Below are positions 7,741-17,240 of a stretch of DNA of 31,467 bases, piece by piece (positions within the stretch are counted from its first letter, which is position 1; each line of letters begins with the position of its first letter). Under the pieces are notes generated by a model, which searched no databases, was not told the origin of the DNA, and was given only the letters and a program-made list of their open reading frames with translations. Made by a program: the position numbers and the translations under genes. The DNA is from a virus. The stretch lies in IMG/VR virus record IMGVR_UViG_3300042860_002330, positions 1 through 31,467 of that record. One strand, given 5' to 3'.

Positions 7741-8096
7741 CAGCGCCACCGCTTGCCGTGCTGGGGTGCCCGGCGCGGGATCAGCCTGGAAGCAATCGCG
7801 CTTGTGAGGCCGGCAGGCGGTGGCCAGGGTTCACCAGCGGCTTGCCAAGCGTCGAAGGCTGTCTTGATGCTGGCTTTGGTCGGGTAATTGCGGGCGGGGT
7901 CTGGCGCTGTCTCGCAGGGGGCGGTGGGGGCGGTGGGGGCGGTGGGGGCGGTACGAGGAGGGACTTTTTCAAACCTCCCCACCTGCGCATATGCGTGCGC
8001 GCCCGTATTTGTGAAAGGTTGGGAAAACTCCCCATCGCATCGCCCCCTCCGCCCCCCTTTAAGGTCAAACAGGTCAAGCTGGGATTTCAAATTCAT
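7740..8096 (-). CDS. Hypothetical protein with Thr-Ala-Pro tandem repeat (118 aa)
   Basis: 118 residues; ATG 8096 overlaps the helicase stop by 23 bases. The N-terminus (MNLKSQLDLFDLKGG) resembles a short beta-clamp-type or peptide-docking motif (QLDLF), which is an inference. A low-complexity linker of four TAP units is encoded by a 9-bp tandem repeat. The C-terminal part contains KASIKTAFDAWQAAGEPWPPPAG and a basic tail. Unknown function, but placed directly after the replicative helicase. Confidence 0.5.
   Translation of the reverse strand: MNLKSQLDLFDLKGGRRGRCDGEFSQPFTNTGAHAYAQVGRFEKVPPRTAPTAPTAPTAPCETAPDPARNYPTKASIKTAFDAWQAAGEPWPPPAGLTSAIASRLIPRRAPQHGKRWR
7917..7951 (+). repeat. 9-bp tandem repeat forming four G5 runs (G-quadruplex candidate)
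   Basis: The plus strand holds four runs of five G (7917-7921, 7926-7930, 7935-7939, 7944-7948), each separated by CGGT. This matches the canonical G-quadruplex pattern with four-base loops. It encodes the Thr-Ala-Pro repeats of the gene on the minus strand, so the G-rich strand is the template strand of that gene. Confidence 0.85.
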
Positions 8097-9546
8097 CTTC
8101 GATCTCCTTCAGTTTGATGCCGCCTACCCAATCCTGCCCCCGCACGCGGCGACGGAATAAGCCCTTGCGGCGATTGATATTTTCGGCAAATTCTTGGTTG
8201 CTTGGGGCGTGTTCCCCGTTGGCTTTGGTCCAATTTCGGAAATCAGCGTAAAGGGCGCCAGGCCGCGCGCTGAAGGCTGCGTCAAGGGTGCAGCGCTCGC
8301 TAATCCACCTGCCGAAAGCGTCTTGAAGGTCAAAATACTCGGCTGTTTTTGCCGCAATGGCGGGCGCGGTGCCAAGGCGCTGCTGCTGCCACGCAAGGCA
8401 ACCCTCGATCATCCATTGCAGGATGGCCGGATATTCTGCCTCTAGCCGGGTCTTTAGGGTGTGGTCTGGCTGCGCCGGCTCATTGTCGAAAGGGACAATA
8501 CGCAACCGGCGCTCCATGGCCTTGCTGCGGCCCTTAAGGCGTGGCGCGTGGTTGCCGACGAACATCAGCTTGTATTGCGGCCAGTATTCGAAGGGGCGTC
8601 CGAACGGCTGGCGCGCGGAGACTGGCGCCTCGTTGCCGGTCAATTCCTTAATCTGGCTTTCTGCCCATGCGTGGCCTGCCTCTGTCTCTGACGCGGTGAC
8701 AAGGCGACTTCCAGCCATGCGGGCGCGGTAGTATTCCACGTTCATGCGGCTATCTGCCGTGAAGGCCCCCATGGGCGCCGCTACGGCATAACCGCCTAGG
8801 ATCGTGGTGACTGTGGTGACAAACACGCCCTTGCCGTTGCCGCCGCTGCCGTACAGGAAGGCGAGCATTTCCTCTGTCACGTCGCCGGTCAGGAAATACC
8901 CGCAAAGGCGCTGGAGGAAAGCAATGGTTTCCGGGTCGTTGGCTGTCGCTTCGATTAGGAAGCTGCGCCATAGTACCGGATCGGATGAAGGCGCGGCAGG
9001 GGCTATAAGCGTGTTTCGGCTGATGTATTCGCCGGGCTTGGCATCGCGTTTCTTGCCGGTTTTCAGGTCTACCACGCCACCCGGCACGCCAAGAAGCCAA
9101 GGGTCAGCATCCCACACCCCTTGATGCACTGCGATGCGCGTGTCTGACTGTGCAAACGCTAGGACGTTGCGCGTGAACGCCAGCTTGCCCATAGCCTTGC
9201 GCTCGCCCTCAGATATGCCAGGCGTGGCTTGAAGGTCGCGCAAGAATTGCCGGGCGCGGTCATTGGCCTCGCCTATCCCGTCAACCGTCCACTTGCCCTT
9301 GCTGAAAAGAAACCATTGGTTAGCGGTATGGTCCCAAACCATCTTGCCTTCCTGCTTTGCCGCAAAGGCAAGGGCGGCTTGTTCCTCCGAAAAGGACATG
9401 ATACCGGCTTCAGACTTGGCAGACTTGGCGGCGGCACGTTGCTGGCGTGCCGAGCCTGTGAGCGCGCGGTTCCAGTCGTCGGGGTCATAGTCTGACACGT
9501 CTAGCGTCCGGTTCGACTGCTTCAAGAATGCGGCGGGCGGCTTCAT
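8074..9546 (-). CDS. D5-like SF3 helicase (phage/plasmid primase C-terminal type)
   Basis: 490 residues. A D5_N-type domain spans about residues 60-210 (QGVWDADPWLLGVPGGVVDLKTG split around 142-164). The SF3 ATPase has Walker A GSGGNGKG at 233-240, an acidic B-type motif ASETEAG at 285-291, and a sensor segment LMFVGNHAP at 327-335, followed by AMERRLRIVPF. It probably unwinds the phage origin. The archaeo-eukaryotic primase domain often fused to such proteins is missing. The start is uncertain: ATG 9546 overlaps the previous gene by 62 bases, with GTG 9498 and ATG 9399 as in-frame alternatives. Confidence 0.9.
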   Translation of the reverse strand: MKPPAAFLKQSNRTLDVSDYDPDDWNRALTGSARQQRAAAKSAKSEAGIMSFSEEQAALAFAAKQEGKMVWDHTANQWFLFSKGKWTVDGIGEANDRARQFLRDLQATPGISEGERKAMGKLAFTRNVLAFAQSDTRIAVHQGVWDADPWLLGVPGGVVDLKTGKKRDAKPGEYISRNTLIAPAAPSSDPVLWRSFLIEATANDPETIAFLQRLCGYFLTGDVTEEMLAFLYGSGGNGKGVFVTTVTTILGGYAVAAPMGAFTADSRMNVEYYRARMAGSRLVTASETEAGHAWAESQIKELTGNEAPVSARQPFGRPFEYWPQYKLMFVGNHAPRLKGRSKAMERRLRIVPFDNEPAQPDHTLKTRLEAEYPAILQWMIEGCLAWQQQRLGTAPAIAAKTAEYFDLQDAFGRWISERCTLDAAFSARPGALYADFRNWTKANGEHAPSNQEFAENINRRKGLFRRRVRGQDWVGGIKLKEIEDEFEIPA

Positions 9547-11460: not shown

Positions 11461-11627
11461 TTCTTCGCCTCCACCGTGCAAACAATATCCTTGATCATCA
11501 GCGCCGGATGCAGCCCCGCCCGAACATACGCCTGCGCCGTCACGCAGCTACGATGCGCTTGATAGCCCGGCTCGCAAGCGGTGCCGTCACTGGCGCAGAT
11601 AAGGAAGGTCAGGACGATCAGGGTCAT
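11457..11627 (-). CDS. Small predicted exported protein with four cysteines (56 aa)
   Basis: 56 residues; ATG 11627 overlaps the methyltransferase stop (ATGA). The hydrophobic start MTLIVLTFLICAS looks like a signal peptide or membrane anchor. The rest is polar with Cys at 11, 18, 28 and 50, which could form disulfides outside the cytoplasm. No lipobox is evident. No family recognised. Confidence 0.5.
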   Translation of the reverse strand: MTLIVLTFLICASDGTACEPGYQAHRSCVTAQAYVRAGLHPALMIKDIVCTVEAKK

Positions 11628-12259
11628 GGCGGCGCATCCCGGAACATATCGCCTTGGCGCTGCGCTTGTTCGATGCGGCGGCAGGCTATGTCGAAGTAGC
11701 GCGGCTCGATCTCAATCCCGACGAAGGGATGGCGCATCTGCATTGCCGCCACGCCGGTTGAACCGCTACCCATGTAGGGATCAAGGATCACGCCGCCGGG
11801 CGGGACCTTGGCCTGTTCAATGCACCAGCGCATGAGGGCAACGGGCTTTTCGGTCGGGTGCCCGTGTTCAACGCGCCCAACATTTCCATCCCAACACTTG
11901 GCTGGGCGGTCCAAATTTGTCCAAGCCATTTCAAAATCCGCCATGGTTGGTACCGCATTGATCTTGCGCCACATAAACCAGCAACGGTTTGGAGTAAGCG
12001 CGAAATATTGCCCCCCCCAAAGGACAACGCGCGCGGACATGCCGCACAATTCGGCTAAAAATGTTTGATGCGGCGGCTCTTGGTCCCATGCAAGCATATC
12101 CGCGCGAGTAGCCGTAGCGCCCCAAGTCCCGCCCTTCATCTTGTCGCCCAACCCATACGGCGGATCAGTAATCACCGCCGCTGGCCGCTCCAGCCCCGGC
12201 GCAATCTCCCGGCAGTCGCCAAGATACAGCGTTGCCAGGCCAATGACTTCTTTACGCAT
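11624..12259 (-). CDS. DNA methyltransferase (N6-adenine/N4-cytosine, beta-type order)
   Basis: 211 residues from ATG 12259, which shares its A with the GcrA stop codon (TGATG). Catalytic motif IV is DPPY at residues 32-35. The SAM-binding motif comes late, as LDPYMGSGSTGVA at 159-171, followed by VGIEIEPRYFDIA at 180-192, and HPTEKPVALM at 134-143 precedes it. Motif IV before motif I is the beta-class order also used by CcrM. The compact size and lack of a partner nuclease mark it as an orphan phage methylase that could protect phage DNA or change host methylation. Its target site cannot be read from sequence. Confidence 0.92.
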   Translation of the reverse strand: MRKEVIGLATLYLGDCREIAPGLERPAAVITDPPYGLGDKMKGGTWGATATRADMLAWDQEPPHQTFLAELCGMSARVVLWGGQYFALTPNRCWFMWRKINAVPTMADFEMAWTNLDRPAKCWDGNVGRVEHGHPTEKPVALMRWCIEQAKVPPGGVILDPYMGSGSTGVAAMQMRHPFVGIEIEPRYFDIACRRIEQAQRQGDMFRDAPP

Positions 12260-12885
12260 CACCCGCGCGCCCAAATCACGCCGCGATTTTTCAGCCAGGT
12301 CGCAGGCGGTGGATTCGTCGCGCTCTTGGCAGGCGGCGCCGCGTAAATCAAAGCAAAATGTTCCGGGCAATAAGGCGATTTCAGCCCGCGCGCATTGGCC
12401 CGCACTGGTTCATTGCAGGTGCGGTCGCCAATCGGATGGCAGCACTTTTTCCCCAAAAAGACCCGAGGCGGCGGCGTTTCCGCAACCGCCTCGGGCAAGT
12501 TTTCAACCCGAGGGGAGGCGCTCGGGCGCTCAACGGCGGAGGAAACGCCGGAGATGATAGCGGCACGAGACCGCGATGGGGAAGCCGCCCGCGCTTCGAA
12601 GACGGGAAGTTCTTGCGGATTGCGGGCGGCAGGCCGGGACACCATGCCCCGGCTTTTCGGTGACGCGATATTGGCTGGCGCTTCACGCGCCGGCAATCTC
12701 AAGCGCCGCGCCTTGCCAATAACCGCGTTTTTGCTGATACCCATCCGGCGCCCGATTTCCGCCGTGGATGCGCCCGTCGCCCATTCAGCGCGTAGCGTGG
12801 CTACATCGCTTTCATTCCAATCGCGGTTCTCAAAAGCGCGCCGCCCCGTGCCGCGCTCGTGATTCATCGGCGCAAGATATCTCAT
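12259..12885 (-). CDS. GcrA-like cell-cycle regulator
   Basis: 208 residues from ATG 12885 (ATGA overlap; an upstream TTG is unlikely). The N-terminal DNA-binding part (about 22-66) reads DWNESDVATLRAEWATGAS, then AEIGRRMG-SKNAVIGKARRL, the GcrA pattern. A long Pro/Ala/Ser-rich linker follows. The C-terminal domain has CCHPIGDRTC near residue 148 and SPYCPEHFALIY near residue 170, matching the GcrA C-terminal C-x-PIGD...YC-xx-H-xx-xY signature that contacts sigma factor. In Caulobacter, GcrA binds sigma-70 and activates genes with methylated GANTC. The gene is translationally coupled to a DNA methyltransferase. Confidence 0.88.
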   Translation of the reverse strand: MRYLAPMNHERGTGRRAFENRDWNESDVATLRAEWATGASTAEIGRRMGISKNAVIGKARRLRLPAREAPANIASPKSRGMVSRPAARNPQELPVFEARAASPSRSRAAIISGVSSAVERPSASPRVENLPEAVAETPPPRVFLGKKCCHPIGDRTCNEPVRANARGLKSPYCPEHFALIYAAPPAKSATNPPPATWLKNRGVIWARG

Positions 12886-13154
12886 TGGCGCCACCAAGAC
12901 GGCCTACGGTCAATGCCACCGACTGTTTTATCGTCAAGCAGCGCATTTTTTTTAATGGCGTCAGACGTCATTTTTTTTGAATGCGCTTTAGCCGTCACAT
13001 AGAAAATTTGATTGATTTCTGAAGGCGGAGCGCGCTTCACGCCAATCAAATTGATGCGGTCGCCAAGGCTTTCAAAAGCCTTGCTAACCGTGAATAGCCT
13101 CTCGCCAATGAACCAAAACACGCGCGCAACGGCGCGGGATAGCTTGGCTTTCAT
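12882..13154 (-). CDS. Hypothetical basic protein (90 aa) next to repressor
   Basis: 90 residues; ATG 13154 overlaps the repressor stop (ATGA), so it is translated with it. It is strongly basic, with a hydrophobic/aromatic N-terminal helix (VARVFWFIGERLFTVSKAFESL) and a Lys-rich middle (TAKAHSKKMTSDAIKKN). No recognised domain. Its position as second gene of the repressor transcript suggests a regulatory partner, but this is inference. Confidence 0.5.
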   Translation of the reverse strand: MKAKLSRAVARVFWFIGERLFTVSKAFESLGDRINLIGVKRAPPSEINQIFYVTAKAHSKKMTSDAIKKNALLDDKTVGGIDRRPSWWRQ

Positions 13155-13357
13155 TTACTTGGCCTCCATTCCAAGATAGCGCCAATTTGTTCCGCGCTCC
13201 ACTTCCTGCGGCGCATCATAGCGCGCAACGTAGCATGATACCGATACGGCACTCCTTGCGCCCGCCATTTTTTTACGGCGCCAGGCGTTGAACCAACAGC
13301 CTGCGCCAGCTTTGCCGGTCCACCAAAGAAGGCGACCATATGTTCGGTGTCTTTCAT
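13151..13357 (-). CDS. Small Cro/YdaS-like HTH regulator, probable switch repressor
   Basis: 68 residues. A single helix-turn-helix is visible: MVAFFGGPAKLAQAVGSTPG, then AVKKWRAQGVPYRYHATLRA. The layout L-x-F-GG-xKLA-x-A-G, then V-x-x-W-x-x-x-GVP-x-x-x-x, is the Cro-like/YdaS (carph-isopro) pattern. There is no protease-type C-terminal domain, so it resembles Cro more than CI. It is the first gene of the minus operon, and its ATG begins about seven bases after a TAGGGT -10 box, predicting a leaderless transcript. It faces the three A6TAT operator-like sites at 13376-13424. Confidence 0.8.
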   Translation of the reverse strand: MKDTEHMVAFFGGPAKLAQAVGSTPGAVKKWRAQGVPYRYHATLRAMMRRRKWSAEQIGAILEWRPSK

Positions 13358-13363
13358 GTGCCT

Positions 13364-13393
13364 ACCCTACGCCAGAAAAAATATCCGCGTCAA
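13364..13393 (-). promoter_or_regulatory. Promoter for the repressor operon (leftward)
   Basis: On the minus strand, TTGACG (13393-13388), an 18-base spacer containing ATATTTTTT, and TAGGGT (13369-13364). The usual distance from -10 to start puts +1 at 13357, the A of the repressor ATG, so the transcript would have no leader. The element mirrors the rightward promoter at 13407-13435. Confidence 0.7.
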
Positions 13394-13424
13394 GGGAAAA
13401 AATATCTTGACGGAAATATTTTTT
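13376..13424. promoter_or_regulatory. Three A6TAT operator-like sites in the divergent switch
   Basis: AAAAAATAT occurs at 13376-13384 and 13397-13405 in direct orientation and as ATATTTTTT at 13416-13424. The first and third lie in the -35/-10 spacers of the leftward and rightward promoters; the second is near the centre. The spacing is about two helical turns (21 and 19 bases). The arrangement suggests cooperative repressor binding, comparable in logic to a three-site lambda-type operator, although each site is AT-rich and could also bend DNA. Confidence 0.65.
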
Positions 13425-13435
13425 AGGCATAGGGT
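13407..13435 (+). promoter_or_regulatory. Promoter for the rightward early operon
   Basis: TTGACG (13407-13412), a 17-base spacer containing ATATTTTTT, and TAGGGT (13430-13435). Predicted start is 13442, giving a 28-base leader with an AGAGG ribosome-binding site (13456-13460) nine bases before ATG 13470. It is nearly identical, in mirror image, to the repressor promoter. Confidence 0.7.
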
Positions 13436-13469
13436 TAGCACATCGCAACCCGAACAGAGGCACCAAGCC

Positions 13470-13841
13470 ATGCTCAATCTTCTCCCCACGCAACCGCCCG
13501 AAGCGCCAGCCAAGCACGAAGCGCTTGTGACGCTGGCCAAGTTTCGCGCCGATCTGGAGCGCTGCCCCGATGACAAGCATGGCAACTGGCACGATGCCGC
13601 GACTATGGCTTGGTCCGCGATGCTGCAAATTGAGCGCATGGTGGCGCAGCTTCTTGACATCAGCGCCGCCGCGCCAAGCCAAGACGCTTCCGAGGCGATT
13701 GATCACGCGATTGATGTGTTGGTTGAAAGCGCCGGCACCGTGACCGCCGAAGCTGAACGCCGCGCCGAAGATGACGCCGTGAATGGCACCTTCTATCGCG
13801 CGATTGATAATTGGAACATGCGCCGGGGGGCCGCCCAATGA
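13470..13841 (+). CDS. Hypothetical early protein (123 aa), first gene of rightward operon
   Basis: 123 residues from ATG 13470, chosen because AGAGG lies nine bases upstream and longer frames would extend into the promoter. It is helical and acidic, with DLERCPDDKHGNWHDAATMA, then MLQIERMVAQLLDIS and a second charged helix ending in RAIDNWNMRRG. No family recognised. As the first product of the operon it could be an early regulator or host-takeover protein. It overlaps the pentapeptide gene by ATGA. Confidence 0.65.
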   Translation: MLNLLPTQPPEAPAKHEALVTLAKFRADLERCPDDKHGNWHDAATMAWSAMLQIERMVAQLLDISAAAPSQDASEAIDHAIDVLVESAGTVTAEAERRAEDDAVNGTFYRAIDNWNMRRGAAQ

Positions 13842-14623
13842 CGCAGGAACAAATTGCCGTTGTGTTGGCGGATCATCTTAAGTGGTTGCGCAATGAAGGC
13901 GGCCAGCGCGCCGATTTGCGGAGCGCCTATTTGCAGGGCGCCGATTTGCAGCGCGCCGATTTGCAGCGCGCCGATTTGCAGGGCGCCTATTTGCAGGGCG
14001 CCTATTTGCAGGGCGCCGATTTGCAGGGCGCCTATTTGCAGGGCGCCTATTTGCAGGGCGCCGATTTGCGGAGCGCCTATTTGCAGGGCGCCGATTTGCG
14101 GAGCGCCTATTTGCAGGGCGCCGATTTGCAGCGCGCCGATTTGCAGCGCGCCGATTTGCAGGGCGCCTATTTGCAGGGCGCCTATTTGCAGGGCGCCGAT
14201 TTGCAGCGCGCCGATTTGCAGGGCGCCTATTTGCAGGGCGCCTATTTGCAGGGCGCCTATTTGCAGCGCGCCTATTTGCAGCGCGCCGATTTGCAGGGCG
14301 CCGATTTGCAGGGCGCCTATTTGCAGGGCGCCTATTTGCAGGGCGCCGATTTGCAGGGCGCCTATTTGCAGGGCGCCAAAATCAACAACGGCAAAACCGC
14401 CATCGGTGTTCTGCGCCGTGCCACACGCTCGGATGGCTATGAGTTTTTCTTGTGGCATTGCGAGGACGGCTTTTACATTAAAGCCGGGTGCCGGTTTTTT
14501 ACGCTGGAAGAAGGCCGCAAGCACTGGAAAGCCACCCGCGCCGGGACGCCGCTTGGCGATGAAACGCAAGACATTCTGGCGATGTTCGCCAAAGCCATTA
14601 AACGCGTGGGGGTTAAGCCATGA
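13838..14623 (+). CDS. Pentapeptide-repeat protein with near-identical repeat array
   Basis: 261 residues from ATG 13838. Residues 1-24 form an N-terminal cap (MTQEQIAVVLADHLKWL). Residues 25-179 are 31 uninterrupted A(D/Y)L(Q/R)x pentapeptides, predicted to fold as a right-handed quadrilateral beta-helix of nearly eight coils. The C-terminal 80 residues form a separate domain with DGYEFFLWHCEDGFYIKAG, then CRFFTLEEGRKHW, GTPLGDET and a final helix; I have seen this domain follow pentapeptide repeats in other phage proteins. Some pentapeptide proteins (Qnr, MfpA) mimic DNA and bind gyrase; whether this one does is unknown. Unusually, the repeats vary at only a few bases. Confidence 0.9.
   Translation: MTQEQIAVVLADHLKWLRNEGGQRADLRSAYLQGADLQRADLQRADLQGAYLQGAYLQGADLQGAYLQGAYLQGADLRSAYLQGADLRSAYLQGADLQRADLQRADLQGAYLQGAYLQGADLQRADLQGAYLQGAYLQGAYLQRAYLQRADLQGADLQGAYLQGAYLQGADLQGAYLQGAKINNGKTAIGVLRRATRSDGYEFFLWHCEDGFYIKAGCRFFTLEEGRKHWKATRAGTPLGDETQDILAMFAKAIKRVGVKP
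13910..14374 (+). repeat. 31-unit 15-bp tandem repeat inside the pentapeptide gene
   Basis: Units follow GCC(G/T)ATTTGCAGGGC with few variants: GAT or TAT (Asp/Tyr), CAGGGC or CAGCGC (Gln-Gly/Gln-Arg), and CGGAGC (Arg-Ser). A stretch of over 100 bases starting at 13910 recurs from 14090 at a constant offset of 180 bases, showing a block duplication of 12 units. Many junctions create GGCGCC. The lack of stop codons in the unit opens long meaningless frames in other phases and on the other strand. Confidence 0.95.
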
Positions 14624-14745
14624 CCAAATTCGACCAAATTATGACAACGCTAGTTGCCGTTGTTTTTCTCGCTACATGCTTTGGGTTTATCGTTTGGGCC
14701 GGCGTGTTGCTTATGCTTTGGTTGCAAAGGCTGATGCTGTCATGA
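14620..14745 (+). CDS. Very small membrane protein (41 aa)
   Basis: 41 residues; ATG 14620 overlaps the pentapeptide stop (ATGA). After MTKFDQIM it is one hydrophobic span (TLVAVVFLATCFGFIVWAGV, then LLMLWLQRLMLS). Its stop overlaps the next gene's start. Function unknown; single-span early proteins often target host membrane enzymes. Confidence 0.6.
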   Translation: MTKFDQIMTTLVAVVFLATCFGFIVWAGVLLMLWLQRLMLS

Positions 14746-14909
14746 ACCACGAGCGAATTATATGGTGGATCGTGCTTGGCCCGCTTTGCGCGCTGCTGAT
14801 CCTGACGATTACGATTGGCGCTGGCCCGGTCAACGCCGCGTTTGAGCAGCTGTTCCAAGGCATCGCCTGGGTCGTGGCGGTTTGGCTCGTGCTGCTGGGG
14901 GTGGCGTGA
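14742..14909 (+). CDS. Very small two-span membrane protein (55 aa)
   Basis: 55 residues; ATG 14742 overlaps the preceding stop and its TGA shares a base with the next ATG. Two hydrophobic segments are visible, about residues 7-27 (IWWIVLGPLCALLILTITIG) and 39-54 (FQGIAWVVAVWLVLLGV), joined by a short polar loop. The hairpin shape is compatible with a small holin or superinfection-exclusion protein, but no family is recognised. Confidence 0.58.
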   Translation: MNHERIIWWIVLGPLCALLILTITIGAGPVNAAFEQLFQGIAWVVAVWLVLLGVA

Positions 14910-16259: not shown

Positions 16260-17240
16260 ATGGCACTGCAAATCCGCAAAGCACAAAGGCGCAAGGCAAA
16301 ACTACGCCTAGCGCTTATCGGCCCGTCAGGGTCCGGTAAAACCATGTCTGCGCTCAAGCTGGCGTTTGGCATTGGCGGCAAGGTCGGCATTATTGATACC
16401 GAAAACGGTTCCGCTGATCTTTACGCTAGCCTTGGCGATTATGACGTGATCACGCTGGAGAAGCCCTACACCGTCAACAAATACCGTGAAGCTATCACGG
16501 CGTTTGAGAATGGCGGATACGATACGATTATCGTTGACAGCCTATCCCACGCATGGGCTGGCGCCGGCGGCTTGCTGGATAAGCAAGGCCAGATTGCCAA
16601 TCGCCCCGGCACCAATTCCTACGCCGCCTGGCGCGAGGTGACGCCGGATCATAACGCCCTTGTGGAAGCGCTGCTTTCCAGCCGGTGCCACATTATCGTG
16701 ACCATGCGCGTCAAGACGGAATACGTGCTGGAGACCAATGAACGCGGGAAGCAAGTGCCGCGCAAGGTCGGGCTGGCGCCTGTGCAGCGTGACGGCGTGG
16801 AATACGAATTTACCGTGGTAATGGATATTGACATTGACCACAAGGCGGCGGCTTCCAAAGATCGCACCACGCTATTTGATGGCTGGCGCGACACCATTAC
16901 GGAAGGCACGGGGCGGCAATTGCTGCAATGGCTGGAAAGCGGTGCGGATGCGCCCGCACCCGCCCCAGCGCCCGCCTCAAAGCCTGCTGAGTCGTCTTTG
17001 CTGCTGATTGATCCCGACGCCATGGAATGCGCCTTCACAAGCATTGAAATGTGGCTTGATGCGGCAAGGCGCGCGTTTGTAAGGCTTGCGGGTGATCCCG
17101 TCGCATTGCGCGCCTGGGCCGATGCGAACGCCGGCGCCTTTGCTGCCGTGGCGGAACGCTACCCCGACACGGTTGCGAAAATTGGCGCGGCCATCACGGA
17201 TCGTTTGGAAAAAACTCTTGAACAGGAAATGGCAGAATGA
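16260..17240 (+). CDS. Sak4-like RecA-fold ATPase (phage recombination)
   Basis: 326 residues. Walker A is GPSGSGKT at residues 21-28, followed by GGKVGIIDTENGSADLY, and Walker B is DTIIVDS at 88-94. The rest of the ATPase core includes HIIVTMRVKTEYVLE and RDGVEYEFTVVMDID. A Pro/Ala linker follows at about residue 230 and then an acidic helical C-terminal region. The family (AAA_24/Sak4) comprises phage RecA-core proteins that promote single-strand annealing with a phage SSB. Here an SSB-like gene overlaps its stop codon, as expected for that pair. Confidence 0.82.
   Translation: MALQIRKAQRRKAKLRLALIGPSGSGKTMSALKLAFGIGGKVGIIDTENGSADLYASLGDYDVITLEKPYTVNKYREAITAFENGGYDTIIVDSLSHAWAGAGGLLDKQGQIANRPGTNSYAAWREVTPDHNALVEALLSSRCHIIVTMRVKTEYVLETNERGKQVPRKVGLAPVQRDGVEYEFTVVMDIDIDHKAAASKDRTTLFDGWRDTITEGTGRQLLQWLESGADAPAPAPAPASKPAESSLLLIDPDAMECAFTSIEMWLDAARRAFVRLAGDPVALRAWADANAGAFAAVAERYPDTVAKIGAAITDRLEKTLEQEMAE

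Follow-up and report, generated by a model that had tools for sequence, protein, structure and literature searches.

The switch of phage lambda is the textbook case of two repressors acting on shared operators; there, the starts of PR and PRM are spaced by roughly 85 bp, and CI bound at OR2 helps PRM. Cro proteins with their cognate OR sites, and a covariation of recognition helix and operator in temperate phages, were reportedly described by Hall, Lefevre and Cordes in 2005 (cited in PMC4997575). In phage PY54 the cro mRNA starts at the AUG, that is, it is leaderless (PMC4488713), and the Cro proteins of PY54 and phiKO2 bind OR3 only, their own gene being apparently not repressed (PMC4488713, PMC4997575). 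Our literature search, mostly within openly accessible papers, retrieved no account of the phage group considered here or of a PR/PL pair lacking cI.

The DNA analysed is a stretch of 31,467 nucleotides (IMG/VR record IMGVR_UViG_3300042860_002330, positions 1 to 31,467), hereafter the window. It carries a 112 bp gap (13358-13469), with a 68-aa gene on its left and a 123-aa gene on its right, which is probably a lambda-type early control region without the CI arm, where a single Cro-like repressor would damp both early operons. Two promoters placed back to back can be read from the sequence of the gap: a leftward TTGACG-N18-TAGGGT (-35 at 13388..13393 and -10 at 13364..13369, minus strand) and a rightward TTGACG-N17-TAGGGT (-35 at 13407..13412 and -10 at 13430..13435, plus strand), the latter with a conserved -35. 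Direct reading hence bore out the mirror-image, nearly identical promoters proposed in a previous sequence-only reading of this DNA. The two -35 hexamers are separated by 13 bp and the predicted starts by about 85 bp. In a pattern search the perfect TTGACG-N17-TAGGGT occurred once in the window and, when spacers of 16-18 were allowed, the window had one promoter per direction, as had each of three relatives with a length of about 39 kb, always at the gap. A generic sigma-70 scan of the window reported neither promoter, because TAGGGT matches TATAAT at 3/6 positions; the -35 and the 16-18 spacing fit sigma-70 promoters and are conserved, while the -10 is far from the consensus. A test of TTGAC-N-TAGGGT spacing in three alphaproteobacterial genomes gave too few matches, with higher counts in the controls, and lent this -10 no support. 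The two promoters also share GCACAT downstream of their -10 hexamers, an identity that is peculiar to the window genome and that its relatives do not conserve.

The two transcripts are predicted to differ at their 5' ends. The ATG of the 68-aa gene lies 6 nt beyond the leftward -10 (6-8 nt in relatives of all classes described below), and no earlier start is available to this cro-like gene because of an in-frame TAG inside the same -10; its mRNA is thus predicted to be leaderless, with a start at 13357. For the rightward mRNA, a start near 13442 and a leader of about 28 nt are predicted, the latter including a Shine-Dalgarno-like AGAGG (13456..13460, plus strand) that is retained in most relatives.

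A search with the mirrored-promoter pattern, together with a protein search, identified 27 family contigs in IMG/VR besides the window, of which 4 belong to class I (the class of the window), 20 to class II, 1 to class IIb and 2 to class III. The layout shared by these contigs supports the earlier view of divergent early promoters beside a small HTH protein. When relatives were fetched by the rightward protein, the promoter not being used, 22 loci were obtained, 20 of which carry the same upstream layout (exceptions, L022 and L033). Among these 20 promoter-unselected loci, TTGAC is present at both -35 positions in all, the rightward TAGGGT in 19 (TAGGTT in L037) and the leftward TAGGGT in 18 (CAGGGT in both contigs of class III). 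Across 16 sequences of classes II and IIb both spacers vary, unlike the hexamers and the inverted arms (see below), which are conserved; hexamers that stay fixed while spacers vary are the footprint of real promoters. Classes other than I retain TTGAC-N18/N17-(T/C)AGGGT, with a leftward spacer of 17 in class III, and the distance from ATG to promoter fits a sigma-70 promoter in every class. The -35 hexamers lie 13 bp apart in class I and 34 bp apart in the others, the difference of 21 bp corresponding to two helical turns. One relative, G003 (39.1 kb), appears complete, as both of its ends overlap one stretch of the window; the part of it that is missing from the window encodes the portal and the major head protein.

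Some other matches were set aside. L009, L011 and L015, from the first pattern scan, are A/T-rich chance matches, and L038 and L059 show the pattern outside the family context and were treated as chance. L057, a 48.6-kb phage contig, is a separate phage; it carries mirrored TTGAC-N17-TAGGGT promoters (L057:4239-4304) and, on both sides, the whole 5' leader with its Shine-Dalgarno as a near-perfect inverted copy. A fourth Cro class, with TGCA-type words, was seen in L033:1-345 and in L137:3700-3860, which resembles it; the mirrored TAGGGT pair is missing in both, and the leftward promoter of L137 (TTGACC-N17-CTATCT-N6-ATG) still looks leaderless. In GTDB genomes the mirror-promoter pattern gave 7 matches, none of them a prophage relative: L076:638-718 and L079:4772-4852 show mirrored TTGAC-N17-TAGGGT promoters preceding a pair of transposase-like orthologues, from Chelativorans and from a Rhizobiaceae MAG, and the remaining ones look like chance. 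A GTDB prophage search via the rightward protein found no relative among 38 candidates.

Exact copies of AAAAAATAT, here termed the A6TAT word, occur three times in the window, all inside 49 bp of the gap: word 1 (13376..13384, plus strand) in the leftward promoter spacer, word 2 (13397..13405, plus strand) between the -35 hexamers, and word 3 (13416..13424, minus strand) in the rightward promoter spacer. One word per spacer plus a central one, about two helical turns apart, is what had been noticed before, and the measured centre-to-centre distances of 21 and 19 bp agree with it. A second-order Markov model expects 0.26 copies of AAAAAATAT per genome, and three copies within 60 bp were found in 0/1000 simulated genomes. 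As for the conservation proposed as a check, words 1 and 2 are invariant in the 5 class I genomes (the window and 4 contigs), while word 3 drifts at its last bases among AAAAAATAT, AAAAAATCT and AAAAAATTT; the word 1 type is missing from the GC-rich spacers of the other classes. The A6TAT words overlap both promoters, yet their internal dyad symmetry is weak (in a frame of 17 bp, 3 to 5 of the 8 positions of a half-site match, 2 being expected by chance), unlike that of classical Cro operators. Word 2 could also be an UP-like element.

The 68-aa protein (13151..13357, minus strand) looks like a Cro repressor of the N15/P22 type. It passes the P22_Cro profile (PF14549) with E=7e-8 and 32.6 bits against a cut-off of 30.2, its PHROG match is a transcriptional regulator, and its only sequence match in the PDB by phmmer is N15 Cro (2hin/6on0, E=0.0069). 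The AlphaFold model, built with 13 relatives in the input, is all-alpha with five helices and a mean pLDDT of 86.5, and the top three Foldseek matches are structures of N15 Cro, free or bound to operator DNA (prob 0.97-0.99, E 0.09-0.3; best match 6on0, prob 0.99, E 0.09). The recognition helix covers about residues 25-34. A YdaS toxin/antitoxin-like regulator was considered and rejected, the YdaS_toxin profile scoring 21.1 bits, below its cut-off of 30. A second small HTH protein, an open frame of about 61-110 aa, was observed at G003:24926-25117 with matches in G001, G005, G006 and G007; in most relatives its gene is remote from the promoter region (in G003, close to those for the terminase), and it is perhaps a late regulator.

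The operator-like words had also been tied to the small HTH protein, and comparison among classes strengthened this association: words are kept with the HTH and replaced where the recognition helix differs. Class I Cro proteins are 93-99% identical, and in the alignment of the 5 class I genomes invariant columns amount to 75/83 in the intergenic region vs 174/204 in cro. Outside class I, TCATAAAA-type or A7 words are found, with GC-rich spacers. Class II Cro proteins share about half of their residues with class I, and in class II genomes A6TAT is absent, an inverted repeat TGTCAATCATAAAA...TTTTATGATTGACA extending into both -35 hexamers. In the one class IIb genome these become TCAAGCATAAAA and TTTTATGCTTGACA, with the same T to G change in both inverted arms, and alongside this change the recognition helix passes from RPNAVCN (class II) to RKHSVHM. 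In class III the arms are TCAAGAAAAAAA and the recognition helix is SEKAVYM. Between classes II, IIb and III, identity is 27-45% in the recognition helix, compared with 73-82% in the C-terminal half; the values for class II vs IIb are 45% and 82%, respectively. Considering the position of the A6TAT words, the family of the adjacent protein and the matching of word and Cro classes, we infer that these words would be bound by the Cro-like protein and that binding would repress.

Class I and class II were also compared at the DNA level. By blastn against two class II genomes (G003 and G006), the differing segment is 13259..13424, which spans the HTH half of Cro, both sets of operator-like sequences, and the rightward -35 with its spacer. 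To the right, DNA similarity resumes at precisely 13425, which lies within the rightward promoter; to the left, it recurs at 13151-13258, in the C-terminal codons of Cro. The differing block thus combines the half of Cro that reads DNA with the sequence that it would read. This block may have arisen by exchange or by linked divergence. A more ambitious proposal, which we consider possible but rather doubtful, is that these are obligately lytic phages with a swappable, Cro-only specificity cassette, in which the DNA-reading half and the operators are exchanged together on a fixed scaffold, and an entrant of the same class is repressed. If so, the Cro of a resident infection would repress both early operons of an entering same-class phage, giving an immunity-like competition between lytic phages without lysogeny.

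The genes of the two operons look like early lytic genes. Leftward, the operon includes a GcrA-like regulator (12259..12897, minus strand; Pfam GcrA, E=2.7e-15), an N6/N4 DNA methyltransferase (11624..12370, minus strand), a nuclease and a primase-helicase (D5_N, 8074..9546, minus strand; profile match). Rightward, the first gene (13470..13841, plus strand) codes for the 123-aa protein, conserved in all classes with 68-100% identity among relatives and with no Pfam, PHROG or HTH match; the operon also includes a Gp157-like gene and an AAA_24/Sak4-like recombination ATPase (16260..17240, plus strand; profile match). At 13854-14909 (plus strand) a long array of 15-base units of the GCCGATTTGCAGGGC type was observed, probably a pentapeptide-repeat protein, perhaps read in a frame other than that of the longest ORF; against G003, similarity over this array breaks into many overlapping repeat matches. 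The GcrA-like and methyltransferase genes adjoin each other just downstream of cro, and Pam5, the nearest named terminase relative, is annotated with GcrA as well.

The motif GANTC is strongly avoided, with 16 sites vs about 116 expected in the window and 13 vs 141 in G003, and avoidance was also observed in G001 and G006 (L067-L072 set); GATC shows no such depletion, and other palindromes of equal composition are depleted mildly at most. Such avoidance is in keeping with CcrM-type methylation of GANTC in the host and with a GcrA encoded by the phage. The presence of GcrA in 8/8 related contigs, together with the GANTC avoidance, points to Alphaproteobacteria as the putative host.

The probable nature of the region is shown by the temperate L022 (IMGVR_UViG_3300034018_001774), the only one among the temperate comparators that shares the flanking genes of the window. 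Like the window, it has a GcrA gene leftward, an orthologous rightward gene (81-82% identical), a leaderless cro behind an N18 promoter (TTGACG-N18-TAGGAA-N6-ATG, with the operator-like word TTACTCGTGAGGTA in the spacer) and an N17 rightward promoter (TTGCAC-N17-TAGGAA, whose spacer contains the operator-like word TTACCTATAAGGTA, a third copy, TTACCTAAAGAGTA, lying upstream). Unlike the window, its promoters are about 500 bp apart with a CI-like HTH gene between them, and an integrase lies downstream of the rightward promoter. The same plan, with cI and an integrase-like gene in a different gene set, is seen in L113, a 50-kb contig. Searches for a tyrosine integrase were negative for the window and 10 further contigs lacking cI (11/12 contigs searched, L022 having one), and those for a serine recombinase, an S24 (LexA-type CI) repressor or a ParA-type ATPase were negative in 8 contigs; the HTH_3 search gave no match in the window, the sole match above the cut-off at this spot being that of L022. 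As the window is a 31.5-kb fragment, related contigs of unrated completeness supply part of the evidence that lysogeny genes are absent. By its gene content, the phage group looks purely lytic. Either cI may have been lost here or it may have been gained in the L022 lineage.

As the same promoters flank a CI-like gene in L022, those of the window look like a PR/PL pair of the lambda type without CI. The leftward promoter would correspond to PR, serving a leaderless cro-like gene followed by GcrA, methyltransferase and replication genes, and the rightward one to PL, serving an operon with recombination genes (in L022, also the integrase). Because no cI lies between them, the promoters stand back to back over one shared cluster of three operator-like words. 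Early in infection, Cro would accumulate and occupy both spacer words, each time keeping polymerase from the promoter concerned, while Cro on word 2, between the -35 hexamers, would affect both; Cro would thereby curb its own production and reduce expression of the two early operons. The proposal draws on demonstrated features, namely promoter geometry and conservation, the match of word and Cro classes, the Cro family, and comparator phages with cI between the promoters.

The sequence-only reading had instead suggested an unusually balanced switch, in which small differences in occupancy or copy number could decide the outcome. In explicit form, this would be a bistable device in which two equally strong divergent promoters compete and occupancy chooses between two programmes. 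Near-identical promoters and a symmetric cluster of operator-like words would suit such a bistable device, and with -35 hexamers 13 bp apart two polymerases could hinder each other. We nonetheless regard it as very unlikely, and this part of the earlier proposal was not sustained. No second fate or alternative programme is visible, neither a second repressor nor an integrase being encoded alongside in the window or in the searched contigs that lack cI. Spacing between the promoters varies among classes, those of class II being 21 bp further apart, so that close competition is not conserved. Moreover, the products appear unbalanced, as a predicted leaderless and a predicted Shine-Dalgarno-led transcript would be translated differently. 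Near-identity of the promoters is also shared with L022, where they are about 500 bp apart, which argues for two copies of one operator-promoter type, as are PL and PR in lambda, and not for the tuning of a balance.

Two further explanations concern the words themselves. They might be promoter-strengthening sequences (an UP-like element and A-tract spacers) and not operators: in classes I, II and III the -35 is directly preceded by A/T tracts, and A-tracts in UP-like or spacer positions are known to raise promoter activity. However, the spacer A-tracts are missing in about 22 relatives of other classes that have the same promoters, the words change with the recognition helix of Cro, and UP elements are not expected between -35 and -10, all of which makes this explanation unlikely. 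Alternatively, Cro on word 2 might activate both promoters and repress through the spacer words at a higher level, as the centre of word 2 lies about 41-44 bp upstream of both predicted starts and the weak -10 hexamers would benefit. Against this, class II has no third word at the position of word 2, and no Cro protein is known to be a well-established activator of the CI/OR2 kind; activation by Cro seems to us highly improbable. Joint repression of both early operons by the Cro-like protein is thus the reading that we retain.

On this reading, the window would represent a natural lambda-like version without cI, in which the equivalents of PR and PL are apparently controlled by one Cro-like protein acting at a single operator cluster. 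At least three classes of operator and recognition helix on one promoter scaffold provide a ready series for the study of repressor-operator co-change, and the phage group poses the question of the use of Cro alone, without a lysogenic option.

Like lambda OR/OL, the window has divergent promoters next to a Cro gene, operator-like words inside the spacers and three such sites at intervals of about 20 bp, and its predicted start-to-start distance of about 85 bp is near the PR-PRM spacing. Unlike lambda, it lacks cI and has an early operon of the PL kind, instead of PRM, as the divergent partner; both promoters share one cluster, and the Cro mRNA is predicted to be leaderless. The all-alpha Cro is of N15 type, as in the immB regions of N15, PY54 and phiKO2; those phages carry cI/cB, which the window does not, and, unlike in PY54 and phiKO2, the same word is found in both promoters. 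Words and recognition-helix residues change together here, as they reportedly do in the temperate phages of Hall, Lefevre and Cordes, with the difference that the present classes, at least three in number, form a natural set on a nearly constant promoter scaffold and without cI.
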